Of a stretch of 26,741 nucleotides of DNA, positions 3,483 to 26,736 are shown piece by piece (within the stretch, counting starts at the first letter, position 1; each line of letters begins with the position of its first letter). The translations under genes and the position numbers were made by a program. Below the pieces are notes generated by a model. That model was not told the origin of the DNA. It saw only the letters and a program-made list of their open reading frames with translations, and ran no database searches. The DNA is from a virus. Location of the stretch: positions 1 through 26,741 of IMG/VR virus record IMGVR_UViG_3300030329_004073. One strand, 5' to 3'.

Positions 3483-5513
3483 TTACGATTTCTCGTCTTT
3501 TTGAGCTTGACTACGTTTTTCAGAATCATTCTGTAGACGTAATTTCTCCGATTCGAGTTTGACCGCATCTCGGAGTCTTCCAAGTGTGAGTTTAGTACCA
3601 GCTTTTTGTTCAAGCTCGTTCTCTTTCAACCCACTCTTAAATTTCTCGACTTCAGTTCGTTTTCTTGCAGAGATTGATTCTCTATGAGCTGTTTGTAAAT
3701 CTCCTTGAGTATTCTTCAACTGCTCTTCTAACTGTTGTACATAACTTTGTAATTTATTAATTTCATCAGTTCTTTGCAAGACACCTTCTTTATCAAATAT
3801 TTCTGTTTTCTTCAATGCTTCATTCCTGTCAATTAAACCAGCTTGATATGCTTCCATGTATATTTGCCATTCACCCCACTTATTAGATGGCATTGTAGAG
3901 TTTCCAATTACTCTTATATCAAATTGACCTAATCCAACTTCATTTTCAATCCCCATAATAGATTGTGTTTTATCATCATACATTCTTTTATTAATCATAA
4001 ACTCGGTAATATCATTATTTGGCTGAACAATTCTAACCTTCTTTTGAAATGTATAATGACTTTTTGCTAAATTATAAACAACCTTACCACATCTTTTAAG
4101 TGAACCTTCAATATCTCTTAATTTAGATTTAGAACGTCTTTGTCCAAAATCCTCCATCATCATTGTAGCTGATGATGTTCTTGGTGCTGCTTCCGTATTT
4201 CCTTGCATCATTTCAAAAATACCCATATTTAAATCAATATATCTTTCGATTAATTGTGGTAATTGCATAATTGAATTTGCTAATGGTTGTGGAGCAGGAA
4301 AATGAGGTTCCCCAAAAGATGGGTCGTATTCGATAGTAGCATTCGGATTTGCCCAATCTTTCTCTAACTCTTCGACATCATGGACACTTCCTTGAGGGAT
4401 GAGTAGTTTTAACCCTGAGCTTGCTTGTGCGTGCGAGGTGATAAGTGACACCACCTTATTGAGAAACCTTTGAAATGGTTTATTTTTTCTAACATCACTC
4501 ATTGGATATGGAGTGTTTGTCCATATATTTGGCACTGGAACTATAGGATATATATCAGTATCTAATATATGCTCATATAAAACTATCTGACCAACTATAC
4601 ATGTTAATTTAATTCTTGTTTGAAGAACTTCTACAAAATCAAGTTCATTTCTTTCTCGTGCTTCAATTACCTCTTGTTGCTCCATAAATAATGCAAATTC
4701 TTCTTGAGATAATACTTGTTCTTGCTCAGTTCTTAAGTCCATCACTCTATAGTAAGGAACTTTAATTTTTGAATATGATTCAATTAGTCTATATTTTTCT
4801 ACTTGAAATTCATCTCTATCTTTAATATTGTCAGGAGTAAAAGAATCAATTGTAGTTTTATTTGTTGATGTAGGATAATCTTCGTCATCCGAATCATTCT
4901 CAATCATGTCAATTAATACTTTATCACTACCTTCTTCAACTGGCTCCATTAATTGTGGATATAAATCAACTAATTGACTTCTAGTAAAAATAGTAGAAAC
5001 CATCATACCTGTGGCATCATCAAAATATCTTTTTCTAGCATTAGGGTCCACTACAACTCTAAAAGGATTAATGCTTGTAAACTTAACTTCTCCTCTTCCA
5101 AAATCAGCTTCTTTGTCTAGGTATACATAAAAATATCCTAATCCAGTAATAGTATAATCATGAACAGCTTGCTTGAACGCTTCGTCACCATCAGATATAT
5201 CCCATATATACTCTAATAAAGTTTTCCATACATTTGCCATTTTGTTATCAGAGTCTTCTCTTCCAACAACAGAAAACTTTGGAGGCTTAGATGTTATAAT
5301 TGCTTTGAATTGTTCTATAGCTGAATATAATCTGTCCATAGGAACAGATGATTGATTTCTTGATTGCAGCTCTTCTACTTCACTTCCAGTGAAATGATTT
5401 CCTAAATAAAAGTCAATATCTTCTCTCGCTGCTGTATCCCAATCACTTCGTGCATCATCCCAACGCCTGTACAGGTCCTTTATCTCTTTTGCCCTAATAT
5501 CTTCCTTTATCAT
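3483..5513 (-). CDS. Portal protein, P22-like
   Basis: A 676-residue portal, the dodecameric channel at one capsid vertex through which DNA enters and leaves. The N-terminal half has the typical P22-portal pattern: RRWDDARSDWDTAAREDIDF, then FYLGNHF, VPMDRLYSAIEQ and a beta domain with GLGYFYVYLD and INPFRVVVDPNAR. Residues about 330-450 (YPIVPVPNIWTNTPYPMSD and following; LNMGIFEMMQGN; RTSSATMMMEDFGQRR) correspond to the stem and crown region where a 'sG' and 'T..m..e..~r' signature is common. The last 100 residues are a Q/E/K-rich coiled coil ending SEKRSQAQKDEKS, similar to the helical barrel of long P22-type portals. It lies directly after the large terminase, with which it docks. Length is normal for the family. 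Confidence 0.88.
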   Translation of the reverse strand: MIKEDIRAKEIKDLYRRWDDARSDWDTAAREDIDFYLGNHFTGSEVEELQSRNQSSVPMDRLYSAIEQFKAIITSKPPKFSVVGREDSDNKMANVWKTLLEYIWDISDGDEAFKQAVHDYTITGLGYFYVYLDKEADFGRGEVKFTSINPFRVVVDPNARKRYFDDATGMMVSTIFTRSQLVDLYPQLMEPVEEGSDKVLIDMIENDSDDEDYPTSTNKTTIDSFTPDNIKDRDEFQVEKYRLIESYSKIKVPYYRVMDLRTEQEQVLSQEEFALFMEQQEVIEARERNELDFVEVLQTRIKLTCIVGQIVLYEHILDTDIYPIVPVPNIWTNTPYPMSDVRKNKPFQRFLNKVVSLITSHAQASSGLKLLIPQGSVHDVEELEKDWANPNATIEYDPSFGEPHFPAPQPLANSIMQLPQLIERYIDLNMGIFEMMQGNTEAAPRTSSATMMMEDFGQRRSKSKLRDIEGSLKRCGKVVYNLAKSHYTFQKKVRIVQPNNDITEFMINKRMYDDKTQSIMGIENEVGLGQFDIRVIGNSTMPSNKWGEWQIYMEAYQAGLIDRNEALKKTEIFDKEGVLQRTDEINKLQSYVQQLEEQLKNTQGDLQTAHRESISARKRTEVEKFKSGLKENELEQKAGTKLTLGRLRDAVKLESEKLRLQNDSEKRSQAQKDEKS

Positions 5514-5550: not shown

Positions 5551-7122
5551 TCATTTTATTCTTGCTCCTGTCATCCAATCGTATAATTTTTTTGGTTTAT
5601 ACCATTTTCCATGCTTATCCTTCTCTTTAACCTTCACTTTTCCAGCCTTGGGATTTCCTCTTGCAAATTGAGTTGCAAGCCAAAAAGCATCAATAGTATC
5701 ATCATGTGAACCTTTAGGAAAGTCTATCAATTCACCTATAAAGTCATGCATATCCTTTTTTAAATGAACAGCACCAGCTTTAAACATAGGTTGCAATCCC
5801 TCAAATAATCTATCCTTCTTTTTTTGATTTCCATAATTTTTAATACCTTGCTCAATGCCAGGTAAGAATAAGCCTTCTCTTTTACTCTTTTTCATTACAT
5901 AATCACGCAACATCTCTTGATATGCAATTGTTTCTATATTTATTCTCCGTATCGGTGAGTATCGTTTAGCCATTTCAAATATCTTGTCGGCACACTCCAT
6001 CGGTAAAACTCTTTGCCTCCAATATTCAATAACATAATAATCATAGTCTGAAGTAACGCCAATAACCATAATAACAGAATAGTCACTGTGAGTAGTGGTA
6101 GTCGAAGCAGGGTCAACACCCATGTAAATATTGATATATTCTTTATCTTCGCCATCCCTGTGAATATACCACGAATTGTACCCTTCATCGAATCTAACAT
6201 TCCCTTTATATAATCCATCATTTATATCCTCCTCGCTAAATATTTGGTCCTCAGGCGACTTTGCCTGATTCATATATTCTTGATAAAATTTTGCTGGGGT
6301 ACCAGAATCAATATAAAATTGCTTTCTTTCCTCCAATTTCTTCATACTCCATCTGCTTGGCCAGATTGGAAAGCCGTCCTCTATAGCCTTCCTTGTAAAC
6401 ACTTCCCATGCAAATTGTTCCCCAGTTTTTTCACATTCTCGATTTTTTACCACCAAGCCATTCAAAAATGAATCGTAATGGACTATCGTCCCATTGCACC
6501 AGAGAAAGCCGTTTTTGTCAAAATCTATAGCTGGATATACTGCTGCGGTCACCCATTCCTTGATTTGCCTTCTTGACTCTGGTGTCTTGGTGTTTAACTC
6601 TGATTCGAAGTCATCAAGAATAATACCTGTGTATCTTGTCGATAGTTGTTTTTTTCCTCTTAATCTTTGTGAAGTACCCTTGCCAATCATTCGGCATCCG
6701 TTTTTTAAGGTAAATTCGTCCTTTGTCCACTTATCTCCCTCCAAATCACCAAAATAGTAATGTATAGCTGGATTTTCAAATATATGATTTTGAATCCATG
6801 CTAAATTATCACGTGCTTGGTCCTGTGCTTCACCTATCCATGCAATAAACTCAGGTTTCTCTTTAGTAGCAAAAAGGAACCTGTGAAGAACAGCTGTAGC
6901 TGCTAGGGTAGATTTTGCATGGTCTCTAGGTAAAACGAGTGCTAATTGTTGAATATCTTTACTTAATAGATATTTTCCAACATCATAATGAAATTTAGGT
7001 GACTCACTTGCAAGGAAATCGGCAGGACTAAACAATTTTCCAAATGTTATTAAATCTTTATAGGCAAGCTCTAATACTTCTTCATTCTTAGAAACATTAC
7101 CATTGAGGTTGAGATTAGCCAT
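5551..7122 (-). CDS. terL: Terminase large subunit (packaging ATPase and nuclease)
   Basis: A 523-residue motor that cuts concatemeric DNA and pumps it into the prohead. The ATPase domain shows a non-standard Walker A at residues 65-72 (PRDHAKST, typical of phage terminases) and Walker B at 167-171 (GIILDD, with the catalytic Glu at 173). A coupling region GTIVHYD lies at 211-217. The RNase H-like nuclease domain carries its metal-binding acidic residues at D337 (YMGVDPA), E397 (INIETIAYQ) and D474/D475 (GSHDDTIDAFWLA). All key residues are intact and the length is normal. The start ATG overlaps the stop of 7122-9152. The 7-9 kb gene sits between this subunit and the small subunit, an unusual order. 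Confidence 0.95.
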   Translation of the reverse strand: MANLNLNGNVSKNEEVLELAYKDLITFGKLFSPADFLASESPKFHYDVGKYLLSKDIQQLALVLPRDHAKSTLAATAVLHRFLFATKEKPEFIAWIGEAQDQARDNLAWIQNHIFENPAIHYYFGDLEGDKWTKDEFTLKNGCRMIGKGTSQRLRGKKQLSTRYTGIILDDFESELNTKTPESRRQIKEWVTAAVYPAIDFDKNGFLWCNGTIVHYDSFLNGLVVKNRECEKTGEQFAWEVFTRKAIEDGFPIWPSRWSMKKLEERKQFYIDSGTPAKFYQEYMNQAKSPEDQIFSEEDINDGLYKGNVRFDEGYNSWYIHRDGEDKEYINIYMGVDPASTTTTHSDYSVIMVIGVTSDYDYYVIEYWRQRVLPMECADKIFEMAKRYSPIRRINIETIAYQEMLRDYVMKKSKREGLFLPGIEQGIKNYGNQKKKDRLFEGLQPMFKAGAVHLKKDMHDFIGELIDFPKGSHDDTIDAFWLATQFARGNPKAGKVKVKEKDKHGKWYKPKKLYDWMTGARIK

Positions 7123-13321: not shown

Positions 13322-13585
13322 ATGACAAGTACAACAATAAATGATTATTTAAAACAATATGCAAAGGGTAGCGAAAGCGACCACGAAATAGAATGTACAA
13401 GAAATCAGTACGGTGTAGTAAGAATAATAGTAAGAGCGAAAGTAATACCTTGTAGCTGTTGCAAGGCACCAACCAAAAGAAATAAATTAATAGATAAGAG
13501 ATGGACTGATGGACAAGGACTGAGGCGAGAAGCCAAGATGTGCCCAACATGTTCTGCTGTCTCAAAAGATTTGTATGGTATCTAA
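13322..13585 (+). CDS. Small zinc-knuckle protein
   Basis: An 87-residue protein starting at ATG 13322 (MTSTTINDYLKQY) with AAGGA upstream; an in-frame ATG 39 bases earlier lies in the terminator loop region and is not used. Residues 41-75 contain C-S-C-C (VIPCSCCKAPTKRNK) and C-P-T-C (EAKMCPTCSAVSK), a probable zinc ribbon with a basic linker. Nucleic-acid or protein binding is the normal use of such a fold. It is the first gene after the terminator and precedes the hairpin and TCACTATCACA site at 13602-13631. No named family is recognised. Confidence 0.75.
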   Translation: MTSTTINDYLKQYAKGSESDHEIECTRNQYGVVRIIVRAKVIPCSCCKAPTKRNKLIDKRWTDGQGLRREAKMCPTCSAVSKDLYGI

Positions 13586-13620: not shown

Positions 13621-13631
13621 TCACTATCACA
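13621..13631 (+). repeat. TCACTATCACA site 1
   Basis: First of five exact copies of this 11-mer. It ends 18 nt before the start of 13649-13846, just upstream of the ribosome site, and follows a 6-bp hairpin (TTTGTG 13602-13607 with CACAAA 13614-13619). Confidence 0.7.
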
Positions 13632-13648
13632 AAAGGAAAGGGTTAGGC

Positions 13649-13846
13649 ATGACTGATAATAAAAAGGAAACAGATAGAAAAAAGCCAACAAGCATATTTG
13701 CTGCATTCAGAAACGCAGAGCATGCAAAATGGGCATTTGATAACATTTATAACAAACTAAAGAAAGATGAGGCATTTGAATTGGTGCTGTATGTCGGACA
13801 GCTTGAAACAACAATGAGAGAGGGGTATTCTGATGACAATGAATAG
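13649..13846 (+). CDS. Small unknown early protein
   Basis: A 65-residue soluble protein beginning MTDNKKETDRKKPTSIFAAF, helical in the middle (RNAEHAKWAFDNIYNKLKKD), with an acidic tail. GGAAAGG is placed before the ATG, and a TCACTATCACA site lies just upstream of that. Its last 14 bases overlap the next gene. I do not recognise a family and see no motif. The tight overlap and ribosome site make it a real gene of the early operon. Confidence 0.7.
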   Translation: MTDNKKETDRKKPTSIFAAFRNAEHAKWAFDNIYNKLKKDEAFELVLYVGQLETTMREGYSDDNE

Positions 13847-14105
13847 CGTATCAATAGTAAATTATTTAACTGATATGGTAGGTGATGGCAAGCAAATAGA
13901 AGATGTTCCAAAACAGATAAGGGTAGGTGCTTGTAATTATGCATTTGTAAGAGGCGATATTGGTCTTGAGCTGTGGGTATGGGCTGAAGACCAGTGGTGT
14001 CAGGTATCTGATTTAACTTGCATGAGAGTATGGCAATACCAAGAAATAAAATCATATGCTGTGGCTGTTGGTATGGTAGAAGAAGATGAAGATTTATTTA
14101 TTTAA
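13833..14105 (+). CDS. Small unknown early protein
   Basis: A 90-residue protein (MTMNSVSIVNYLTDMVGDG ...) with a tryptophan-rich middle (ELWVWAEDQWCQVSDLTCMR) and an acidic C-terminus (EEDEDLFI). The ATG at 13833 has GAGGGG 7 nt upstream inside the previous gene, so the two are coupled. The pattern suggests a compact alpha/beta fold. No family or catalytic motif is recognised. It is followed by the structured non-coding segment 14112-14197. Confidence 0.7.
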   Translation: MTMNSVSIVNYLTDMVGDGKQIEDVPKQIRVGACNYAFVRGDIGLELWVWAEDQWCQVSDLTCMRVWQYQEIKSYAVAVGMVEEDEDLFI

Positions 14106-14111
14106 ATAATA

Positions 14112-14197
14112 ACTGGGGATATTGACAGGCGAGTATACCAGGTACAGAGGCGTAAAAACCAGAAGTCGCTGTGTGCTAACGAGGGTCAAGCCCCAGT
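14112..14197 (+). ncRNA. Structured RNA element closed by a 12-bp helix
   Basis: The 112-base gap between 14105 and 14218 is G/C-richer than its neighbours. Its ends pair: ACTGGGG (14112-14118) and TTGAC (14122-14126) with GTCAA (14185-14189) and CCCCAGT (14191-14197), separated only by a 3-nt/1-nt internal loop. Inside, GCGA (14129-14132) can pair with TCGC (14166-14169). The length (86 nt) recalls a tRNA but no cloverleaf or T-loop fits. It ends 20 bases before the start of the next gene, so it may control that gene or be processed from the early mRNA. No known family is recognised. Confidence 0.5.
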
Positions 14198-14217
14198 AAA
14201 ACTAATAGGAGAAACTG

Positions 14218-14448
14218 ATGAGATACGGAGTAAACATTAACGCACTGGCATATTATTTATATAATGCTGACTTTGAACTGTTCAAAGAGGATATATTTGA
14301 AGATGATAACTTTACAGATGAGTATGTGCAAGATAAATTCAGAGAGTTTCAAGATAACTTCTCACACTTTCTGTATAGCTTGTCAAACAATCACAGAGCA
14401 AAGTTAGCTGAAGCCAGCATGAAACTTTATTTAATGCATAACAGATAA
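14218..14448 (+). CDS. Small acidic helical protein
   Basis: A 76-residue, D/E/F-rich protein (MRYGVNINALAYYLYNADFE ... FREFQDNFSHFLYSLSNNHR ... LYLMHNR). AGGAG lies 7 nt before the ATG. It looks entirely helical, with aromatic positions spaced as in a small helical bundle. There are no cysteines and no membrane segment. I do not recognise a family. It follows the structured RNA at 14112-14197 and precedes the second TCACTATCACA site. Confidence 0.7.
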   Translation: MRYGVNINALAYYLYNADFELFKEDIFEDDNFTDEYVQDKFREFQDNFSHFLYSLSNNHRAKLAEASMKLYLMHNR

Positions 14449-14450
14449 AA

Positions 14451-14461
14451 TCACTATCACA
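14451..14461 (+). repeat. TCACTATCACA site 2
   Basis: Exact copy in the gap between 14448 and 14480. It begins two bases after the stop of the preceding gene and ends 19 nt before the next start, leaving just room for the AAGGAGG ribosome site. Confidence 0.7.
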
Positions 14462-14479
14462 AACACAAGGAGGCAACAC

Positions 14480-14824
14480 ATGGAACTAGACAGAGATTAT
14501 TTATACCACTGCGGAGGCTGTGGTGAGGCTGACAAAAACTACCCTGATAAAAAGACAGAGTGTGAGCATTGTCATGGCACTGGTCAAGGTAATGATATCT
14601 TCCAAGATGAACCAGAGGAATGCGGTGGCTGTAACGGATATGGTGCCTATCTTGACAGAGTGTCACCAATAGAATATCATGAATGGGCAAGAGCAGATGC
14701 TTATGGGATATATACTGGGCTGTATTGTGATAAATGTTATGACAACCCAGAGAAATATACATATCGTAAAGACAGATATCACGATGAAGGATATGCTGGA
14801 GAACGAATGGAAGGGGATTATTAA
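14480..14824 (+). CDS. DnaJ-type zinc-finger protein
   Basis: A 114-residue cysteine-rich protein. Four CxxC pairs are present, three of them with the CxxCxGxG-like form of the DnaJ cysteine-rich domain: CGGCGEA (11-17), CEHCHGTG (28-35), CGGCNGYG (48-55) and CDKCYDNP (about 83-90). DnaJ domains bind two zinc ions and unfolded peptides; stand-alone versions are common in phages and have no established function. There is no J-domain HPD motif, so it is not a co-chaperone by itself. AAGGAGG lies 8 nt before the ATG. The tail is charged (KDRYHDEGYAGERMEGDY). Confidence 0.8.
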   Translation: MELDRDYLYHCGGCGEADKNYPDKKTECEHCHGTGQGNDIFQDEPEECGGCNGYGAYLDRVSPIEYHEWARADAYGIYTGLYCDKCYDNPEKYTYRKDRYHDEGYAGERMEGDY

Positions 14825-14825
14825 G

Positions 14826-14987
14826 ATGGCTAGAAAATACATTGACTACTTAAAAGAACAGATATATTACTGGAAAAAGAAAGCTAAGGAATCAACAGGC
14901 TCTATTGTAGGGCATGCTGAATATATGTACGAAGGATTCAGAGAACAGTTAGAAAAATACAAAAACAAGCAAAGGAGCAACAAATGA
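14826..14987 (+). CDS. Small basic coiled-coil protein
   Basis: A 53-residue protein starting at ATG 14826 (MARKYIDYLKEQIYYWKKKA), one base after the stop of the previous gene, with AAGGGG upstream. A longer in-frame extension exists upstream but overlaps the DnaJ-like gene in another frame and has no ribosome site. The sequence is an amphipathic basic helix with aromatic a/d positions. Function unknown; its last bases (CAAATGA) overlap the next start. Confidence 0.65.
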   Translation: MARKYIDYLKEQIYYWKKKAKESTGSIVGHAEYMYEGFREQLEKYKNKQRSNK

Positions 14988-15355
14988 GTACAATAATAGA
15001 ACAGATAGTAAAAGAGCATGAAAGAACAGAGAGATTGAATAAGATGATTAAGGACATCAGAGATATCTTTGACTTTACTGGTCATGAACTGGATATAATC
15101 AATCACTTAAAAGAATGGAAGAAAGCACAGCCAATAACAACTATGCAAGTCAAGAATATTATAGGCGAAGTTAGGGATTTAATTGATGATGCACGACGGC
15201 AGGCAAGAGATATAATAAATGAAGTTGAGTCTGCTAGAAGTTGTTTGGATGAGGCAGAGTACTATAGTCCTAATGATTATCTTGATGACGCAGAGCAGAA
15301 ATTAGATGATATCTTAAGTGACATTGAGTCAACAGAAGAAGTGAAGGAGGCTTAA
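14984..15355 (+). CDS. Coiled-coil early protein
   Basis: A 123-residue, almost wholly helical protein with long charged heptads (IVKEHERTERLNKMIKDIRD, VRDLIDDARRQARDIINEVE, YLDDAEQKLDDILSDIESTE). One internal cysteine, no zinc motif, no enzyme motif. The ATG overlaps the preceding stop (ATGA) and AAAGGAG lies upstream. Such proteins are common fillers of phage early operons and may act as inhibitors or adaptors. No family is recognised. Confidence 0.7.
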   Translation: MSTIIEQIVKEHERTERLNKMIKDIRDIFDFTGHELDIINHLKEWKKAQPITTMQVKNIIGEVRDLIDDARRQARDIINEVESARSCLDEAEYYSPNDYLDDAEQKLDDILSDIESTEEVKEA

Positions 15356-15417
15356 TGGAAATAGTAGCACTTATAGTCATAGCTTTACTGATTTACGAAA
15401 TGTTCATAAGAATATAA
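15355..15417 (+). CDS. 20-residue membrane microprotein
   Basis: A tiny ORF starting at ATG 15355, which overlaps the stop of 14984-15355 (TAATG), with GGAGG placed 5 nt upstream. The product is nearly all one hydrophobic helix (VALIVIALLIYEMFI), long enough to cross the membrane once, with one Glu near each end. Strong ribosome site, coupling and stop 14 bases before the next gene argue that it is translated. Small holin-like or inhibitor-like membrane peptides are known in phages; function here is not determined. Confidence 0.55.
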   Translation: MEIVALIVIALLIYEMFIRI

Positions 15418-15431
15418 CAAGGAGGTAACAG

Positions 15432-15626
15432 ATGAAAAAATACTACATTGCACTCTCTTTCTATGTGGAGGAGAGTGCTGATATGTTGGAGACAGCAAAG
15501 TTCAAGGCATTATCCAAAGTAAGATACAAGGGTGGTCCAATGAAAGAGCTTGCTGCTGTTGGAATACACGCTGATGATGAATGGCGTGAAATCACTATCA
15601 CAGAGGAGGGCAAAGAAAATGGATAG
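15432..15626 (+). CDS. Small alpha/beta early protein
   Basis: A 64-residue protein (MKKYYIALSFYVEESADMLE ... KFKALSKVRYKGG ... DDEWREITITEEGKENG). It looks like a beta-alpha-beta unit: YYIALSFYV strand, helix, then EITITEE strand. AAGGAGG lies 6 nt before the ATG. The last coding bases contain the third TCACTATCACA copy (as codons for ITIT) and the ribosome site of the next gene, with which it overlaps by 8 bases. No family is recognised. Confidence 0.7.
   Translation: MKKYYIALSFYVEESADMLETAKFKALSKVRYKGGPMKELAAVGIHADDEWREITITEEGKENG
15592..15602 (+). repeat. TCACTATCACA site 3
   Basis: Exact copy inside the 3' end of 15432-15626, ending 17 nt before the start of 15619-15990. Retention of the exact DNA word inside a coding sequence suggests it is selected. 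Confidence 0.7.
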
Positions 15627-15990
15627 CTTATACACTGATGCAGAAGAGTTATTGTATGATTTTATTTTCCATGAGATAGCTGAAGAGCAAGACTACAAAA
15701 CAATCAAAGAGCAAGTAATGGAGCTTGACTGCTATGATGAGATACATTCAATAGCAGATAGCTTGACACCTATATATCATGGTGAATTACTAGAACTTGC
15801 TTGTGATAATAATGAGTTAGCCATCACTGAGCCAGAGTTGGGACCAGCATTTGGTGGAGAGCCGACACCTATAAATATAATTGCAGCAAATGTATATGAA
15901 TTTATATGTAATTATATGTATAAGAACGAAGAATCAATCAAAAAACAGGTACTCAAAGAGTATCATCAACAAATGAAGGGAGAAAAGTAA
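15619..15990 (+). CDS. Acidic unknown early protein
   Basis: A 123-residue protein. I choose ATG 15619 (MDSLYTDAEELLYDFIFHEI), with GAGGAGGG 8 nt upstream, over an in-frame ATG 69 bases earlier that lies within the preceding gene and has no ribosome site. It is strongly acidic (many D/E) and helical, with two or three cysteines not in zinc spacing. The C-terminus turns basic (KKQVLKEYHQQMKGEK). Acidic DNA-mimic behaviour would be one possibility but no known family is recognised. Confidence 0.7.
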   Translation: MDSLYTDAEELLYDFIFHEIAEEQDYKTIKEQVMELDCYDEIHSIADSLTPIYHGELLELACDNNELAITEPELGPAFGGEPTPINIIAANVYEFICNYMYKNEESIKKQVLKEYHQQMKGEK

Positions 15991-16259
15991 TGACTAACAC
16001 AAATGTAATAACAATAGAGAAGGGCATACCAGTACCAGAGGTGATTGGTCGTGGTAGTAAAATTAAATATGACTTTATAAAAACAATGGAAGTGGGCGAC
16101 AGTTTCTATATAAATGGAAACACCCCAGACTTCAACCCTACTACTGTAAAGCAACATATTTATAAGCAAAATGCTACTACACCATATAGATACACAGTAA
16201 GAACCTTGTCTGGAAGCTCAAAAAACCCTAAATCTATCAGAGTTTGGAGGATAGCATGA
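15990..16259 (+). CDS. Small conserved-type phage protein (VEVGDSF pattern)
   Basis: An 89-residue protein whose pattern is familiar from many phage early regions: VITIEKGIPVPEV, a basic linker, then KYDFIKTMEVGDSFYING and, near the end, YRYTVRTL ... SIRVWRIA. These small proteins share 'I..giPvP......yPf..M.vGDSF.v' and end with 'RVWRI', and have no known function; a DNA-binding or AbrB-like small beta fold has been suggested by eye only. The ATG overlaps the previous stop (TAATGA). Most likely real and conserved across phages, but without a biochemical role to name. Confidence 0.75.
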   Translation: MTNTNVITIEKGIPVPEVIGRGSKIKYDFIKTMEVGDSFYINGNTPDFNPTTVKQHIYKQNATTPYRYTVRTLSGSSKNPKSIRVWRIA

Positions 16260-16525
16260 TGGATAAAGAGACAGCAAGACAGTTTCAACTTATTGTAGAT
16301 AAACTAGACTCAGATGATATTAGTGTTGCATTTTCTATGTTAAAAGACAGAAGACAGTCTTTAGGTAGACAAATAAAATACAGCTTGAAAGTAGGAGATA
16401 CAATCACTGTAGATAGTTTGGGCGAAGGAACTATAACAAAAATAAACAGAACAAGATGTGTTGCTAGTTTTGAAAGAGGTAGCTACAATGTTCCGTTTTC
16501 ACTAATAAGTCAAGGAGGTCAGTAA
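16256..16525 (+). CDS. Small protein with an SH3-like C-terminal half
   Basis: An 89-residue protein. Start taken as ATG 16256 (ATGATGGAT), 5 nt after GGAGG and overlapping the stop of the previous gene; the second ATG is equally possible. Residues 1-45 are helical (ARQFQLIVDKLDSDDISVAF); residues 45-85 read KVGDTITVDSLGEGTITKIN then CVASFERGSYNVPFSLIS, the alternating pattern of a KOW/SH3-like barrel (GD.V......G.I.kin...~V......~.vp..li). This form, helix plus barrel, recurs in phage small proteins of unknown role. Nucleic-acid contact is plausible. Confidence 0.65.
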   Translation: MMDKETARQFQLIVDKLDSDDISVAFSMLKDRRQSLGRQIKYSLKVGDTITVDSLGEGTITKINRTRCVASFERGSYNVPFSLISQGGQ

Positions 16526-17082
16526 TGGGATACGATGTATATGGATTAAATCCAGCAATGAGAGAGATAGATGAAAATAAATACAAAACATACAACAAGT
16601 ACAAGGATATGGAGTATGTAGAAAGACAAAAGCTGTTTGATGGAGAGCAAGACTTGCAACGCACATATTATGATGAATGTTGGGCGAGAGAAGCAGAGAA
16701 TCCTGGTGTATACTTCAGAAATAATGTGTGGTGGTGGCGACCTCTATGGAACTATGTCTGTTGTGAGTGTGATGACTTTCTGGACGGAGAGGACATGAGA
16801 GGTGGAGATTCAAATGACGGACATGTTATAACAGAGGATAAGGCTTGTGCTATCGCTAAAAGACTTTTTCAGTTAATTGATGACGGAGAAGTTAAGGGTT
16901 ATGAGGATTTTCACAAGCAAAGAGCATCTGAAGCTAATGCAGATAATGAGAGGCTCCTTGAAGATGGTGGAGAGAAGTATGGCAAGGGCTGGAACTGGGC
17001 TGAATCATATCCATTCAATGTGGAGAATGTTCGTGAGTTTGCTACATTTTGCAGTGAAAGTGGTGGATTCGAGATATGTTAA
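16525..17082 (+). CDS. Conserved phage protein of the MGYDVYGLNP / FRNNVWWWRPLW type
   Basis: A 185-residue protein of a form I know from many phages: it opens MGYDVYGLNP and has the block GVYFRNNVWWWRPLWNYVC at residues 61-79, followed by a helix-rich region (ITEDKACAIAKRLFQLIDDG). No function is established. Two cysteines occur side by side (YVCCEC) and three more near the C-terminus, so metal binding is possible but not clear. GGAGG lies 6 nt before the ATG, and the start overlaps the previous stop by one base (TAATG). The gene overlaps the next by 7 bases. Confidence 0.8.
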   Translation: MGYDVYGLNPAMREIDENKYKTYNKYKDMEYVERQKLFDGEQDLQRTYYDECWAREAENPGVYFRNNVWWWRPLWNYVCCECDDFLDGEDMRGGDSNDGHVITEDKACAIAKRLFQLIDDGEVKGYEDFHKQRASEANADNERLLEDGGEKYGKGWNWAESYPFNVENVREFATFCSESGGFEIC

Positions 17083-17372
17083 AAGATGAAACATGGGTAT
17101 GCAAGTCATGTTGTGCCAGTAATGTACAGGAACAAGTATGGGTTGAGCTTAACTCATATCAAGGGCATAAAGCTACAGTTGTAGATGAGTGTGGCGACCT
17201 TTTCTTTTGCCCAGAGTGTGGCTTAAATGTAGAAGTCGTACAGTATTGTGACTTTGCTGTCGAAGATGACACCGAACAAGCAGAAAACAATCGTCTGTCT
17301 CAGATTATGTCTGAGGCAGATGTTGCAATGAATAGAAATATAAAAAGACAAACAGAAAGGAGAGATAAGTAA
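17076..17372 (+). CDS. Zinc-ribbon early protein
   Basis: A 98-residue protein whose first 55 residues form a ribbon: WVCKSCCASNVQEQVWVELN and FFCPECGLNV give two CxxC knuckles about 37 residues apart. The arrangement 'vC..C.s..v....Wv..N.....fwC..C' is typical of small phage zinc-ribbon proteins found next to the FRNNVWWWRPLW protein. The C-terminal third is helical and charged (NRLSQIMSEADVAMNRNIKR). No known activity; DNA, RNA or protein binding is the usual function of such folds. Confidence 0.8.
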   Translation: MLKDETWVCKSCCASNVQEQVWVELNSYQGHKATVVDECGDLFFCPECGLNVEVVQYCDFAVEDDTEQAENNRLSQIMSEADVAMNRNIKRQTERRDK

Positions 17373-17373
17373 T

Positions 17374-17511
17374 ATGACAACAGAAATGTATGATTTATTA
17401 TACTTAATAGATAGTCTTATCACTATCACATTAAAGGGTGGCTTGATACTTCTTATGCTAAGCTATTGCATTAGAGGATTAACAGTAAGAGTAAAGGAGA
17501 AGATAAAATGA
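17374..17511 (+). CDS. 45-residue membrane microprotein
   Basis: ATG 17374 (MTTEMYDLLYLIDSLITITL), just after the stop of the zinc-ribbon gene, with GGAGAG upstream. Residues 7-34 form one long hydrophobic helix (LLYLIDSLITITLKGGLILL), then a basic tail RGLTVRVKEKIK, giving an N-out/C-in arrangement by the positive-inside rule. The fourth TCACTATCACA copy lies in its middle, so a shorter product from TTG 17443 or ATG 17455 is also possible. Its stop overlaps the next ATG (ATGA). Function unknown; holin or pinholin-like is one reading. Confidence 0.6.
   Translation: MTTEMYDLLYLIDSLITITLKGGLILLMLSYCIRGLTVRVKEKIK
17420..17430 (+). repeat. TCACTATCACA site 4
   Basis: Exact copy inside 17374-17511. 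It is followed by AAAGGGTGG and, 13 and 25 nt downstream, by in-frame TTG 17443 and ATG 17455, so it may mark an internal start like the other sites mark gene starts. Confidence 0.6.
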
Positions 17512-17612
17512 TTATACTTGCAATCATAATAACAGTAGCAATTATTAGTTATTTAGCAGCACCTAGGCTGTTATTTAGAGATGATAAAACATGGAGGATA
17601 GACGATGAGTAA
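17508..17612 (+). CDS. 34-residue membrane microprotein
   Basis: ATG 17508 overlaps the previous stop; GGAG lies 9 nt upstream (GTAAAGGAGAAGATAAA). Residues 1-20 (MIILAIIITVAIISYLAAPR) are one membrane helix followed by a charged tail (LLFRDDKTWRIDDE). The stop overlaps the ATG of the next gene (17605). This is the second of two consecutive membrane microproteins, a layout seen in some phage holin/antiholin pairs, though it lies far from the endolysin gene. No family is recognised. Confidence 0.6.
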   Translation: MIILAIIITVAIISYLAAPRLLFRDDKTWRIDDE

Positions 17613-17754
17613 ATCAGCAGACTTTATACTAGAGTTCTTAGAAATAGTAGGCAATTCAAGTGAATACAATAAATATAATTGGGATTGGAACAACCTACCA
17701 AGTTTTGAGAAAATGTGGGAAATTGTGAATAATAATAGACGAGAAAAGGAATAA
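17605..17754 (+). CDS. 49-residue unknown protein
   Basis: ATG 17605 overlaps the end of 17508-17612 (GATGAGTAA), with GGAGG upstream. The product (MSKSADFILEFLEIVGNSSE ... WDWNNLPSFEKMWEIVNNNR) is a short polar helical protein with three tryptophans. It is the last gene of the first early unit; after its stop an A/T-rich spacer carries the promoter at 17779-17807. No family or motif is recognised; kept because start, overlap and stop are all clean. Confidence 0.55.
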   Translation: MSKSADFILEFLEIVGNSSEYNKYNWDWNNLPSFEKMWEIVNNNRREKE

Positions 17755-17778
17755 ATATATAAATAATATAAATATTTC

Positions 17779-17807
17779 TTGTATGTTACATTTATTTAAA
17801 GTAATAT
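17779..17807 (+). promoter_or_regulatory. Promoter for the replication-recombination cassette
   Basis: TTGTAT (17779-17784), 17-base spacer, TAATAT (17802-17807), in the 79-base spacer between 17754 and 17834. The start would fall near 17814, 20 bases before the ribbon-helix-helix gene. A/T-rich flanks on both sides fit a real promoter. The first gene product could repress its own promoter. Confidence 0.55.
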
Positions 17808-17833
17808 AAATAACTAAAATTGAGGTGAAAATA

Positions 17834-17980
17834 ATGGGAAAAAAAGAAACTAACTCATATGTTCTGAATGATATTAATCCAGAACTATGGAAACAGTTCA
17901 GACATAAACTGCTTGATGATGATTTAAATATCAAGGAAGGTCTGATACTTTTAATTGAAAGATATGTGGACGGCAACTAG
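17834..17980 (+). CDS. Ribbon-helix-helix-like small DNA-binding protein
   Basis: A 48-residue protein with GAGGTG 7 nt before ATG 17834. Layout: short N-terminal strand (ETNSYVLNDI), then 'INPELWKQFRHKLLDDDLNI' and 'KEGLILLIERYVDGN'. This is the strand-helix-turn-helix spacing of Arc/CopG-type ribbon-helix-helix repressors ('v.l.i.pel...f...a...g.s....i..li..yl'). RHH proteins dimerise and insert the strand in the major groove. It is the first gene after the promoter at 17779, so autoregulation of the cassette is a reasonable inference. Its TAG overlaps the GTG start of the next gene. Confidence 0.65.
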   Translation: MGKKETNSYVLNDINPELWKQFRHKLLDDDLNIKEGLILLIERYVDGN

Positions 17981-18768
17981 TGAAAAATCCAACCGATAAA
18001 ATAAAGACAATATATTCCAAATACATTGACTATGAGAACGAGCAGAATCGCATCAATAGGTACGAAGGAAATGAGCATTTTTACCATGCATCTGGAGCAG
18101 GTATGTGTTCAAGGAAATTGTACTACCAAAGTGTTGAAAAGATTGAGCCAACAAACCTACCAAACGAAACAAGTAACAGATTGTTAAGACTTGGTACAGT
18201 GGTTCATGATGATATTCAAAAATCGCTCGAACTATATAATAATGATATATATAATACCCTTATATATAATAATATATATAATACTAAAGAAAAAGAAAAC
18301 TATCGTAAAGAAAAAGAAACAACCAAGTTTCACATTGAACAAGAAATTCAACTTGAGCAGTATGGTGTTCGTGGTTTTTATGACTGCGTTATGGAGGATA
18401 GTCAAGTCACACTTATAGACTTCAAGACCGCAAACTCGTACTCGTTCAAGCTAAAGTTCGGCAGAATCCCTAAGCCAAATGTTATGACGCATCAAGAGAT
18501 GCAACTAGGGACTTATGGACTAGCAGTTCAAGAGAAGTTTGGTCGGTTAGATGGTATGTACTTGATGTATTACAATAAAGATACATCAGTTGTCAAAGAA
18601 ACGAAAGTTCCGTTGACTTTCCTAAAGAAGGCAGAGTCATTTTGGAGCAATATAAACAGAGAACACGAGCGAGGTCTTCCCATGTTTAAGGAAGGTGTTT
18701 CACCTGTACAAGATTGGGAGTGTAAGTACTGCCAATTCTATGACCATTGCCGACCACCATTTAGATAA
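17980..18768 (+). CDS. Cas4/RecB-like PD-(D/E)XK exonuclease with Fe-S cysteines
   Basis: A 262-residue nuclease with a GTG start (TAGTG overlap). Catalytic residues of the RecB/Cas4 nuclease fold are in place: H76 (GTVVHDDIQ), D135 (GFYDCVMED), D147 and K149 (LIDFKTA), and Q172/Y179 (HQEMQLGTYGL). Four cysteines, C43 (GMCSRKLYY) and C248, C251, C257 (ECKYCQFYDHC), match the 4Fe-4S cluster of Cas4 and AddB-type nucleases. In phages these enzymes resect DNA ends for the annealing protein encoded next. Residues 86-103 are a low-complexity insert (YNNDIYNT, then YNNIYNT) from an A/T repeat at 18226-18286, placed between the helix carrying H76 and the core sheet. The enzyme otherwise looks complete. 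No CRISPR genes are present, so a spacer-acquisition role is not indicated. Confidence 0.85.
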   Translation: MKNPTDKIKTIYSKYIDYENEQNRINRYEGNEHFYHASGAGMCSRKLYYQSVEKIEPTNLPNETSNRLLRLGTVVHDDIQKSLELYNNDIYNTLIYNNIYNTKEKENYRKEKETTKFHIEQEIQLEQYGVRGFYDCVMEDSQVTLIDFKTANSYSFKLKFGRIPKPNVMTHQEMQLGTYGLAVQEKFGRLDGMYLMYYNKDTSVVKETKVPLTFLKKAESFWSNINREHERGLPMFKEGVSPVQDWECKYCQFYDHCRPPFR

Positions 18769-18781
18769 AAGAGAGGTGAAA

Positions 18782-19366
18782 ATGAGTAGTGAAAAAAATG
18801 TATTTAATACATTGAATAAAGTGGATGTATCAGAATACACAAAAAAGAAGGGAAAGTTCAGCTATCTTAGTTGGTGCTTTGCCGTCCAAGAGTTGCTGAG
18901 GGTTTGCCCTTCTGCGACTTGGGAAGTACATTTGTTTGAGGGTGAGCATAGAACTCAACAACCATACATGGTAACAGATGCTGGATACTTTGTCCAAGTT
19001 ACTGTTGATGTTGATGGTGTAAAGAGGACTCAAGTGCACCCAGTCCTAGACAATAGGAATCAATCAATAGACGAACCTAATTCTTTTCAGATTAACACAT
19101 CAATACAGAGATGTTTGGCTAAAGCTATTGCATTGCATGGCTTAGGATTATATATCTTTGCAGGTGAAGATTTACCCGAACCTGATGAGTTAACACAATC
19201 AGAGATTGATGAGATAACCAAGTTAGTAAAGGGTGTGACTGACAAAGAAATGGGAGATGATATCCTTAAGGCTGTTGCTAATGGTCAAGTCAATAGCAAT
19301 AACTATAAGGCATCAATACAACATATAAATAAAATAATAAAAGAACAGAAAGAGGAGAAAAAATGA
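18782..19366 (+). CDS. Single-strand annealing protein, Sak3/DUF1071 family
   Basis: A 194-residue recombinase of the Rad52-like annealing group. The start is ATG 18782 (MSSEKNVFNTLNKVDVSEYT) behind GAGGTGAA; longer in-frame reading overlaps the nuclease gene. The family pattern is clear: GKFSYLSWCFAVQELLRVCP (residues 24-43), GYFVQVTVDVDGV, HPVLDNRNQSI and NTSIQRCLAKAIALHGLGLY then IFAGEDLPEP (residues about 105-137). These proteins anneal complementary strands and form rings on ssDNA. The C-terminal 60 residues are a helical, lysine-rich tail. Together with the exonuclease before and the SSB after, it forms a standard phage recombination set. The stop overlaps the SSB start by 4 bases (ATGA). 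Confidence 0.88.
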   Translation: MSSEKNVFNTLNKVDVSEYTKKKGKFSYLSWCFAVQELLRVCPSATWEVHLFEGEHRTQQPYMVTDAGYFVQVTVDVDGVKRTQVHPVLDNRNQSIDEPNSFQINTSIQRCLAKAIALHGLGLYIFAGEDLPEPDELTQSEIDEITKLVKGVTDKEMGDDILKAVANGQVNSNNYKASIQHINKIIKEQKEEKK

Positions 19367-19977
19367 GTGACATAAATGATGTATTCGATAAAGCAGTATC
19401 CTCACCAAGTTTCTTTAATCCTGGGGCATCTGATGCAACCAAGAAGAAGAACGTAGCTAACGTTACTGGTGAGTTTTATGGGCATATGGAGCAAGCAGAG
19501 CAAAGAGATGTTGAGTTTACTAGAGATGGTAAAACATTTAAAGCTGTGGTGTTCAACTACAAGTTTACTGTAGATAAACAAAATGAAAAACAAAGCTATG
19601 AAGGTGGTCAAAAGGGAGCAGACTACATAGGTAGGACATATAATGCTAATGGTATTTTTAGATTCATAGAGCCAAGTGAAGATGATGACTTTGATTCTAA
19701 TCAAGGTGGCAACAAAGGATACTTTATGTTCTGCTCAACACTTGGTATTGAGTGTCCCACGAAGAAAGTAACAATAGAGGGTAAAGAGGTAGAGGTTAAT
19801 GAACTACCACACCTATCTTGTGATGATATAAATGGTCGTGCAGTTATAGCATTTATAGATAAAGGTAAACCATACAATGACAAGAAGACTGGTGAGAAGA
19901 GAGTGCCTCACGTTGTCAAGTTTGTTAAAGAGTGGGAAGGTGGAAAGAATAAGGATACAGATGATATCCCTTTCTAA
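19363..19977 (+). CDS. ssb: Single-stranded DNA-binding protein with an acidic tip
   Basis: A 204-residue protein that ends in DTDDIPF, the acidic-hydrophobic tip by which SSBs recruit partner proteins. The body (residues about 35-190) is a beta-rich OB-like domain (GKTFKAVVFNYKFTV, NGIFRFIEPSED, GYFMFCSTLGIE, GRAVIAFIDKGKPYN) with several aromatic residues able to stack on bases. It resembles phage SSBs of the DUF669-like kind more than the short bacterial ssb. Position after the annealing protein and the 4-base overlap support a role in recombination and replication. The tip coding sequence also holds the start of the next gene at 19961. Confidence 0.75.
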   Translation: MSDINDVFDKAVSSPSFFNPGASDATKKKNVANVTGEFYGHMEQAEQRDVEFTRDGKTFKAVVFNYKFTVDKQNEKQSYEGGQKGADYIGRTYNANGIFRFIEPSEDDDFDSNQGGNKGYFMFCSTLGIECPTKKVTIEGKEVEVNELPHLSCDDINGRAVIAFIDKGKPYNDKKTGEKRVPHVVKFVKEWEGGKNKDTDDIPF

Positions 19978-20113
19978 AGATAAGAGGAGAAAAGTAGGGT
20001 TGTGGAAGCAAATGAAAATACATTTCTACAGAACATTAGGCATGTCTGGTTTAGACATTGCGAAAAAGGTAGGTGTATCAAAGTCAACTGTTTACCGCCA
20101 TATAGATAGTTGA
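19961..20113 (+). CDS. Small helix-turn-helix protein
   Basis: A 50-residue protein. The best start is ATG 19961, with AAGGA 5 nt upstream inside the end of the SSB gene; the longer in-frame reading would lie wholly over the SSB gene with no ribosome site. Residues 20-48 (RTLGMSGLDIAKKVGVSKST then VYRHI) form a textbook helix-turn-helix of the resolvase/Hin type ('g.s..eIAk..gvs.stvyr.i'). The N-terminus is basic. No catalytic domain is attached, so it is a DNA-binding module only, likely a regulator. It precedes the structured non-coding segment at 20120. Confidence 0.75.
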   Translation: MISLSKDKRRKVGLWKQMKIHFYRTLGMSGLDIAKKVGVSKSTVYRHIDS

Positions 20114-20119
20114 TGTATA

Positions 20120-20243
20120 GGCAGGCATGTCACAATCATCCACACGTTCCACAACTACTCCCTGTGGTGTGTCTGCCGAAGTTTTAGGTAATGCCAAGGT
20201 GGTGTTACTCGTCGAAAGAGAACTGGGGGTCTTCGGACTCCCA
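20120..20243 (+). ncRNA. GC-rich structured RNA segment with a UUCG hairpin
   Basis: The 155-base gap 20114-20268 is richer in G and C than its neighbours and foldable. GGCAG (20120-20124) pairs with CTGCC (20173-20177), enclosing ACAC (20142-20145)/GTGT (20169-20172) and CCACA (20149-20153)/TGTGG (20163-20167). GGTAA and TTACT can pair between them and the last element. This last is an 8-bp stem, TGGGGGTC (20224-20231) with GACTCCCA (20236-20243), closed by C(UUCG)G, an exceptionally stable tetraloop. No U-run follows, so it is not an intrinsic terminator. Three bases later comes the fifth TCACTATCACA. No RNA family is recognised. Confidence 0.5.
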
Positions 20244-20246
20244 CTC

Positions 20247-20257
20247 TCACTATCACA
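20247..20257 (+). repeat. TCACTATCACA site 5
   Basis: Exact copy, directly after the UUCG hairpin and 12 nt before ATG 20269; it runs into the AAGGAGAGG ribosome site. Confidence 0.7.
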
Positions 20258-24618: not shown

Positions 24619-26736
24619 GTTGGGGAAGTTAGAGTATTTCTTTCTTAGGCTAGAATCGTTCAGCATTCTTTTTATTTGTCTTGCTTGATATTGGACATGT
24701 TTATCTAGAGTTATTGCATCTTGTTCGTACCCTTTTCCGCCTTGTTTTAGGTATCTCAAAAACTCATCTCTTTTAGAAACAGCTCTATTTGATTTTAAAT
24801 CTTGGACAGATAGATTGTTTAAAGGACTTGTCCATTTTGAAGATGATACTATTTGATTTACTATCTGACGATGTAACTTAGCTAAGAATACTGGCACACC
24901 AGATGTTGTATTCCCACTAACAGCTTCATCCATTAAGAAATCATAAGTTACAAATGCCTCTCTCATCACATCTTCTTTGTTGCCAAAATAAATAGCATTT
25001 TTTAGATTTCTATAATAAGGAGCTTTCTCACTTGCTTGCTGGCTTCCATTTAATCTAGAGTATCCTTTATCATTCATAAATGAACTTCTAAGTGTTTTAA
25101 TTCTTTTATCCATAGAATAATGTGGGGACTGTTTATTTATATACTTCTGAAATTGCCCAGCTACAACTACAGACCTAGTAAGCCAATCTTCAAGTGCTTG
25201 GTCCCAAGACTTTGTCTTATCAATCCATGCCCATGCATTTTCTCTTGCATTCTGTAAATTCCTAAGTATAATAGGCTCCATTATAGGGATAAAGGACACT
25301 TCTCTATCAGATTGCCCAACCCCTAAAGGAGCTGTAAATAATCCACCATATGGACTTATAACTTCACCCACAACTCCAGCAAATTCTCCTCTCCATAAAT
25401 ACTGCATTGCTATATCTAGGTCCGTACTGTGAGAATGTGGAGGTTCAACATCAAAGAAATAATCGTACATATTATATAATGCGTACCCAGAGAGACCATG
25501 CCCAATCGCCGCCTTTACAAGTGGCATAATATTACCTTCCATTGCTGGTCTATAAATATTTTTATAACTATCAACAGTTGTTACGTAAGCCATTCTCATA
25601 AATAAAGTTGCAGCTCTACCTTCAGGGGATGTTCCCCATAATGGCAATAGTCCTGTCGAAGTACCGCCAGCCGACTTAACATGAGAATAATGCTCTGCTT
25701 GGGATAATAGTTCATCAAACCTTGCTCTATCTTTTGCTGTTTTTAGTTTTGTTGTCTCTAGGAATCGAATATCACTATCACTCATTTCAAGTGTCTCATG
25801 TAAATATCTTCTTATTCTCTTTTTATTTGCGGATATTTTAAACATTCCATGCTCACCACGAAGTTTTCCTAATAGATTTTGATAATGAAGTTTCCCAGCA
25901 TGTGATACAACCATTCTATTTACTTGCTCTGTTATACCCATGAGATTCCATTTAAATAAATGCCTAGAGGCAGTTTTCATTACAGAATAACTTTCTCCAG
26001 CCTCACGAGCTAATTGCTTTGTTCCATATTCTAGTTGTCCTTTTTCTCGTGCCTCTGCGAACGATTTTATTGGAGATGACAGCACTTTCGCAATCCCAGC
26101 CATAGTATTCATTGTCCCATACACAGCTACTGAACGTGGAATTTGAATTAGAACATTCTTTACTCCAGACAATGGAGATGAAAGTCCAGCCATAGCATTT
26201 ACATTAGTAATAGCTCCAACTGTTTTATAAAAATCTTTTTTAAGTCTATCTCTAGCAGTTCCTTCGAGTCCAAGTTCTCTTTCGATAGTCGCCTTAGCGT
26301 ACCAAGCCATATCCTTGTCACCGCTCTTTATTAGGTCAAGCTTAGATGCAGCAGTCTCACCTATACCAAATTTTCTTCCTACACTGGTATATTCTGGCAT
26401 AAATCTTAATACAGCTAGATACTTAGACATGCTGTTAACATACTCTTCTATTGTGTTTTCAAACTTAGTTTCCATTACTCTTATTTTTCGACCATCAGAA
26501 GTTTCTTTATATTCAGGAAGAATAACTCCTCTTTCTTTTAAGTAGTTATTAGACATATACATTCTTGACTGTTGAAGAGATTGCCAAATACTATCTTTAA
26601 CTTCTGCTATAAATTTTGGGTCATTCACATACTCATTTACCTTCTGGTCAAATTTACCCTCACCTCTCTTAAAACCATTTTTAATCGCTTTAGCTTCTGC
26701 TGTGGTTTTAATGTTAGCCTCAACCAACTCATTCAT
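24598..26736 (-). CDS. Large virion-associated/polyvalent-type protein, possibly N-truncated by the edge
   Basis: At least 712 residues, minus strand. The ATG at 26736 is only 5 bases from the window edge and no stop lies beyond it, so the true start may be outside. The protein is long, basic and mostly helical. Stretches such as GLSSPLSGVKNVLIQIPRSV, LMGITEQVNRMVVSHAGKLH and AAIGHGLSGYALYNMYDYFF recall C-terminal parts of the very large 'polyvalent' or internal virion proteins that phages inject with DNA. No catalytic motif is seen; a hydrophobic helix around residue 410-425 could contact membrane. It is the first evidence of a second leftward unit, convergent with the early operon. No terminator stem is visible between the two. 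Confidence 0.55.
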   Translation of the reverse strand: MNELVEANIKTTAEAKAIKNGFKRGEGKFDQKVNEYVNDPKFIAEVKDSIWQSLQQSRMYMSNNYLKERGVILPEYKETSDGRKIRVMETKFENTIEEYVNSMSKYLAVLRFMPEYTSVGRKFGIGETAASKLDLIKSGDKDMAWYAKATIERELGLEGTARDRLKKDFYKTVGAITNVNAMAGLSSPLSGVKNVLIQIPRSVAVYGTMNTMAGIAKVLSSPIKSFAEAREKGQLEYGTKQLAREAGESYSVMKTASRHLFKWNLMGITEQVNRMVVSHAGKLHYQNLLGKLRGEHGMFKISANKKRIRRYLHETLEMSDSDIRFLETTKLKTAKDRARFDELLSQAEHYSHVKSAGGTSTGLLPLWGTSPEGRAATLFMRMAYVTTVDSYKNIYRPAMEGNIMPLVKAAIGHGLSGYALYNMYDYFFDVEPPHSHSTDLDIAMQYLWRGEFAGVVGEVISPYGGLFTAPLGVGQSDREVSFIPIMEPIILRNLQNARENAWAWIDKTKSWDQALEDWLTRSVVVAGQFQKYINKQSPHYSMDKRIKTLRSSFMNDKGYSRLNGSQQASEKAPYYRNLKNAIYFGNKEDVMREAFVTYDFLMDEAVSGNTTSGVPVFLAKLHRQIVNQIVSSSKWTSPLNNLSVQDLKSNRAVSKRDEFLRYLKQGGKGYEQDAITLDKHVQYQARQIKRMLNDSSLRKKYSNFPNLSTIRK

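Follow-up and report, generated by a model that had tools for sequence, protein, structure and literature searches.

Stoperators are short sites to which the phage repressor binds, and a T7-type promoter is a consensus of about 17–20 bp around the transcription start, in phages that encode a single-subunit RNA polymerase. Repeats associated with start codons are, to our knowledge, known well only from mycobacteriophages. The start-associated sequence (SAS) of cluster K mycobacteriophages has a 13-bp consensus, GGGATAGGAGCCC, which includes the AGGAG of the Shine-Dalgarno sequence; it is present in 11–19 copies, located 3–7 bp from the start, and is common to several subclusters, often with orthologous genes (PMC3203893). 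Its function was left open, with a role in translation suspected (PMC3203893). The stoperators of the L5-like (cluster A) mycobacteriophages are also 13 bp long and act in the regulation of transcription (PMC3203893). The omega/ParB-type ribbon-helix-helix (RHH) operators of pSM19035 are made up of contiguous WATCACW heptads, which gives them a period of 7 bp (PMC9499535).

The window analysed here is the first 26.7 kb (26,741 nucleotides) of the 50,871-bp virus record IMGVR_UViG_3300030329_004073, from an uncultured phage. The structural genes run leftward and include those for the portal (3483–5513) and the terminase large subunit (5551–7122). The early genes occupy about 12.8 to 24.6 kb and point rightward; besides many small open reading frames (ORFs), they include genes for a PD-(D/E)XK nuclease, a Sak annealing protein, a DNA methylase and a DnaB-type helicase. 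Of this 11.8-kb early region, 600 bases (5%) are noncoding. A word of eleven bases, TCACTATCACA, is repeated in it, and we infer that the word is a cis element of start sites, of recent origin and specific to its lineage, with a putative function.

Copies of the word and their placement

Five exact copies of TCACTATCACA are present, at the positions reported in an earlier, sequence-only reading (Table 1). All are on the plus strand, between 13.6 and 20.3 kb, and no further exact copy is present on either strand of the 50,871-bp record; the reversed control word has no copy in the same record. Four of the five are linked to a start, at 11–18 nt from the codon (the earlier figure of 12–19 nt is right if counted to the first base of the codon), and in these four the word is located 0–5 nt upstream of the Shine-Dalgarno sequence of a small early gene. 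The remaining copy, at 17420, had been thought to precede an internal TTG or ATG, but it is located inside an ordinary ORF and the proposed start is not credible. The same reading had noted one copy in a coding end that nevertheless keeps the exact word; this holds for the copy at 15592, which is fully coding and encodes Ile-Thr-Ile-Thr, but the copy at 17420 turns out to be coding too.

Table 1. Positions in the window of the word, of the gene behind its third copy and of candidate binders
Feature	Position	Strand	Gap to start codon (nt)	Context
Copy 1	13621–13631	+	17	Noncoding; before ATG 13649 (65-aa ORF); A-rich Shine-Dalgarno sequence directly after
Copy 2	14451–14461	+	18	Noncoding; before ATG 14480 (114-aa CxxC protein)
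Copy 3	15592–15602	+	16	Coding end of ORF 15432–15626 (WREITIT); before ATG 15619
ORF behind copy 3	15619–15990	+		Weak match to ocr-like anti-restriction proteins (PHROG 2568, E 1.3e-4)
Copy 4	17420–17430	+	78	Inside 45-aa ORF 17374–17511; DSLITIT of a small hydrophobic protein; not start-associated
Copy 5	20247–20257	+	11	Noncoding; before ATG 20269 (47-aa putative membrane protein); after a UUCG hairpin
One-mismatch copy, TCACTATCACT	25772–25782	+		Antisense to a long minus-strand gene (Ser-Asp-Ser-Asp codons)
Candidate binder, putative RHH protein (48 aa)	17834–17980	+		Proposed from homology and fold
Candidate binder, small HTH protein	ends 20113			

Copies 1 and 2 have 17 nt in common, AAAATCACTATCACAAA, and the flanks common to the noncoding copies amount to 14–17 nt at most. 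Because the noncoding copies have no common flank beyond this, it is the word itself that is kept. A common RNA hairpin was considered and rejected, as the folds differ between copies and no structure is common to all of them. In the window, no match to a known RNA family of Rfam was obtained.

The five-copy repetition is beyond chance in number and in placement, and the word is repeated exactly, on a single strand, before starts and in excess over other words in related phages. In Markov simulations of the window at orders 2, 3 and 4, with 200 simulations per order, comparable 11-mers (not low-complexity, at least four G+C) never exceeded three copies. When synonymous codons were shuffled with all proteins kept fixed, a mean of 0.007 copies of TCACTATCACA was obtained, in agreement with the earlier estimate that such an 11-mer is expected far less than once, and 11-mers of any kind never exceeded four copies; the small genes at 17509 and 17606 were framed one base off in this null, with an effect too small to matter. 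As for placement, four of the five copies are located in the band 11–20 nt before a start, which covers 3.4% of positions, although this band was picked after the data had been seen, so that exact odds should not be pressed. Three of the five are in the noncoding 5% of the early region. We also scanned 8,932 stretches before putative starts, from the window and 156 related-phage loci, for 10-mers that are not low-complexity, are not Shine-Dalgarno sequences and contain at least four G+C. The word was found before four starts, while all others were found before at most two starts per locus, so the start association proposed earlier stands, unmatched in the 157 loci.

Seven bases of the word, TCACTAT, are identical to the core of the T7 promoter consensus, from which a link to T7-type promoters had been suggested. 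That the copies are promoters of a T7-type single-subunit RNA polymerase is, nevertheless, extremely improbable: the bases upstream of the core differ between copies, the common stretch is just 11–17 nt and two copies are inside genes. A search for the polymerase (PF00940) gave no match in the 50.9-kb record, which is possibly incomplete, while the control, phage T7, was recognised with an E-value of 9.9e-110. We rejected the link because the polymerase was not found while the control works.

We tentatively favour, at a little short of even chances, a reading of TCACTATCACA as a lineage-specific, start-associated cis element, most likely a functional element of the mRNA leader. A factor of the phage or of its host would read the word in cis, most likely in the leader, and so set the translation of the start-linked genes. 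A leader element fits because the word is free of G, is fixed in strand and keeps a tight spacing to the Shine-Dalgarno sequence.

Nearest relative and wider phage group

The nearest relative, L011 (IMGVR_UViG_3300030329_003616), has a helicase 75% identical to that of the window. It retains the two coding copies and the near copy of 25772, but none of the three noncoding ones. The copy at 15592 is kept exactly at the homologous place, within an identical run of 21 nt, and is the only start-linked copy in L011. At the place homologous to 17420, ATCACTATCAC is present, followed by G, and the counterpart of the near copy of 25772, TCACTATCAC, is located at 13413. Where copies 13621 and 20247 are in the window, L011 carries different genes, and the genes behind these copies are absent from it (an ortholog of the one behind 13621 was searched for in L011 and not found). 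At the place of 14451 it has a truncated ortholog, with other upstream sequence. Between the window and L011, 6.5% of homologous 11-mers survive; ATC, a rare isoleucine codon here (15%), survives at nine of 20 conserved isoleucine positions. The retention of both coding words is mildly surprising, and could be driven by the proteins. The copy at 15592, being common to L011, is probably the oldest, and the three noncoding copies would have been gained later, before accessory genes or altered starts. The copy at 17420 probably arose by coincidence, from coding for Ile-Thr-Ile-Thr.

In around 150 further relatives the word is absent in front of the same genes, and conservation across the phage family is not supported; their scattered copies are mostly coding and chiefly in the Sak recombinase gene. 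The word is missing upstream of the orthologs of gene 13649 in L012 and L058, of those of gene 14480 in L014, L045 and others, and of those of gene 15619 in about 20 loci, with L011 as the only exception. Distant homologs of the small protein at 17420 differ in residues and codons. Relatives with the same genes and without the motif had been named beforehand as the finding that would speak against the motif; the wider group consists of such relatives, while the nearest one keeps two coding copies. The orthologs without the word upstream indicate that the element is young or local. Since the word is almost confined to one phage, it probably serves to control expression in this lineage and is not part of a widely shared system. 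Searches for closer relatives with three early proteins revealed none close in the viral collection, and searches with the helicase revealed none in genome contigs.

The relatives also bear on whether the word has any function. It could be a coding-prone word with a period of 6 bp (codons for ITIT, VIV, SLS and SDSD), of which leader copies were spread on a small scale during gene shuffling. We regard this as unlikely, although two of the five copies, and most of those in relatives, are coding; among the coding copies in relatives are those for SLSQ in Sak, for VIVN in the helicase and for VIVK in a further gene. The non-redundant relatives, 1.53 Mb in all, contain TCACTATCAC/GTGATAGTGA 30 times, in about 16 separate contexts, where 2.0 occurrences would be expected, and the word, being in excess in coding DNA throughout the group, is to some extent coding-prone. 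Words of 6-bp period are generally about twofold over expectation in the group, which makes the word the tail of a broad distribution and not a separate class. The 17 nt common to copies 1 and 2 and the absence from L011 of the genes behind copies 1 and 5 would be consistent with copying, as would the phage's own Sak annealing protein and PD-(D/E)XK nuclease. Copied leaders would, however, be expected to have common flanks longer than those observed, and four copies at a matched distance before starts, unmatched in the stretches scanned, are hard to obtain neutrally.

Several wider patterns were encountered in the searches. GTGATAGTGA is the most over-represented low-expectation 10-mer of the group (L011–L086 and L173–L252), and its copies are mostly coding. 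A motif conserved throughout the group was rejected: in many relatives the copy encodes SLSQ of Sak, and the Sak gene of the window differs in its codons. A global association with ribosome sites was rejected as well. In IMG/VR, the pattern TCACTATCACA-N2-8-GGAGG is matched 86 times and its counterpart with the reversed word 34 times; this was not taken as evidence, because many of the matches come from a single phage sequence that recurs, or from coding runs in apparent tail genes. An unrelated, GC-rich phage, G003, contains three exact same-strand copies of CTCACTATCACA, at 717, 4359 and 39959 (L261–L263), one of them directly after a terminator-like hairpin. This case (G003/L138) was rejected as a parallel, since at least one copy is among genes of the opposite strand and a T7-type polymerase was not found. 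In the literature, no phage paper was among the matches listed for the word.

Candidate binders and neighbouring noncoding elements

In L049, the helicase of which is 49% identical, the reverse complement of the word, TGTGATAGTGA, is located directly before the Shine-Dalgarno sequences of two small genes, at 115 and 2866 (plus strand), and L206 has one noncoding reverse-complement copy ahead of a gene. The copies before the two L049 starts are more readily explained by a DNA site than by an RNA leader, and the opposite orientation in these two phages hints at a DNA site that is indifferent to orientation. The word may then be a double-stranded DNA operator or roadblock in the early operon, comparable to a stoperator, where a repressor would bind ATCAC-T-ATCAC and damp transcription downstream. 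We consider this possible but doubtful. ATCAC is present twice, with one base between, in all copies but 20247, and pairs of ATCAC at spacings of 0–6 occur in the record only as ATCAC-T-ATCAC, on one strand. In this phage, however, the orientation of the word is fixed, and the divergent promoter region, at about 12.65–12.83 kb, is without a copy.

The phage encodes small putative DNA-binding proteins. WATCACW heptads are known to be recognised by the omega repressor, which belongs to the RHH proteins (PMC9499535), albeit with a spacing of 7 bp instead of the 6 bp found here. The 48-aa protein of Table 1 resembles an RHH protein and is a candidate binder of the word. Members of its family have weak Arc-like matches, its model contains two helices (pLDDT 71), and the best-ranked PDB folds, none of them a significant match, are mostly those of CopG and MatP, so the RHH assignment is weak. 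It is 77% identical in L011 and has distant relatives in several contigs, but an RHH-like protein was not found in L049. Relatives of the small HTH protein, in turn, are found in L011, L049, L206 and L059. No canonical repressor was recognised in those proteins of the window that were scanned. Both orientations could be accommodated, though this is quite improbable, if TCACTATCACA/TGTGATAGTGA were an orientation-independent site spreading among the start regions of small early genes. In this group of uncultured phages, the site would come and go together with accessory genes and would define a phage-specific regulon, with a small phage DNA-binding protein as its reader.

Two structured noncoding elements are located near the copies. 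The gap between copies 1 and 2 contains a structured RNA candidate (14106–14217, plus strand), in which a closing stem is followed by GACAGGCGAG ... CTAACGAGGGTCAA, with a variable insert. These cores are invariant in nine other contigs (L011, L012, L080, L212, L216, L218, L221, L229 and L236), while the closing stem varies yet still pairs, as judged by eye (CTGGGG/CCCCAG versus AGGGCTG/CAGCCCT). The element has no Rfam match; its conservation appears to exceed that of TCACTATCACA, and it is perhaps of greater interest. The second element is a strongly folding noncoding stretch (20114–20246, plus strand), which has its counterpart at 7700–8178 in L011. Its sequence CTCGTCGAAAGAGAACTGGGG is identical in L011 and partly common to L012 and L034.

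Comparison with described systems

Like stoperators, the copies of TCACTATCACA are short asymmetric sites that point in one direction and are spread through an operon. Unlike stoperators, they are located tightly before Shine-Dalgarno sequences, and their binders are candidates only. With the omega operators of pSM19035, the word has in common a direct repeat of an ATCAC core and a nearby gene for an RHH-like protein. It differs from them in having two units, and partition genes are not seen; as the only ATCAC pairs of the record have a 6-bp period, this is a resemblance and not an assignment to the omega type.

Read as a leader element, the word appears to act most like the cluster K SAS, of which it is not a member; the parallel with mycobacteriophage start-associated sequences that had been drawn from the sequence is a fair analogy in this sense, and does not extend to membership. 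Both are short and asymmetric, have one orientation, and are found outside the structural region, just before the starts of diverse small genes. The word is unrelated in sequence to GGGATAGGAGCCC and is located upstream of the Shine-Dalgarno sequence instead of including it, with four start-linked copies at 11–18 nt from the start, compared with 3–7 bp for the SAS. Where the SAS is conserved across phages, only the 15592 site is common here, with a single relative. If the word is an independent case, phages would repeatedly evolve short common leaders for accessory early genes, and the comparison shows that coding-prone words are able to mimic a start-associated motif.
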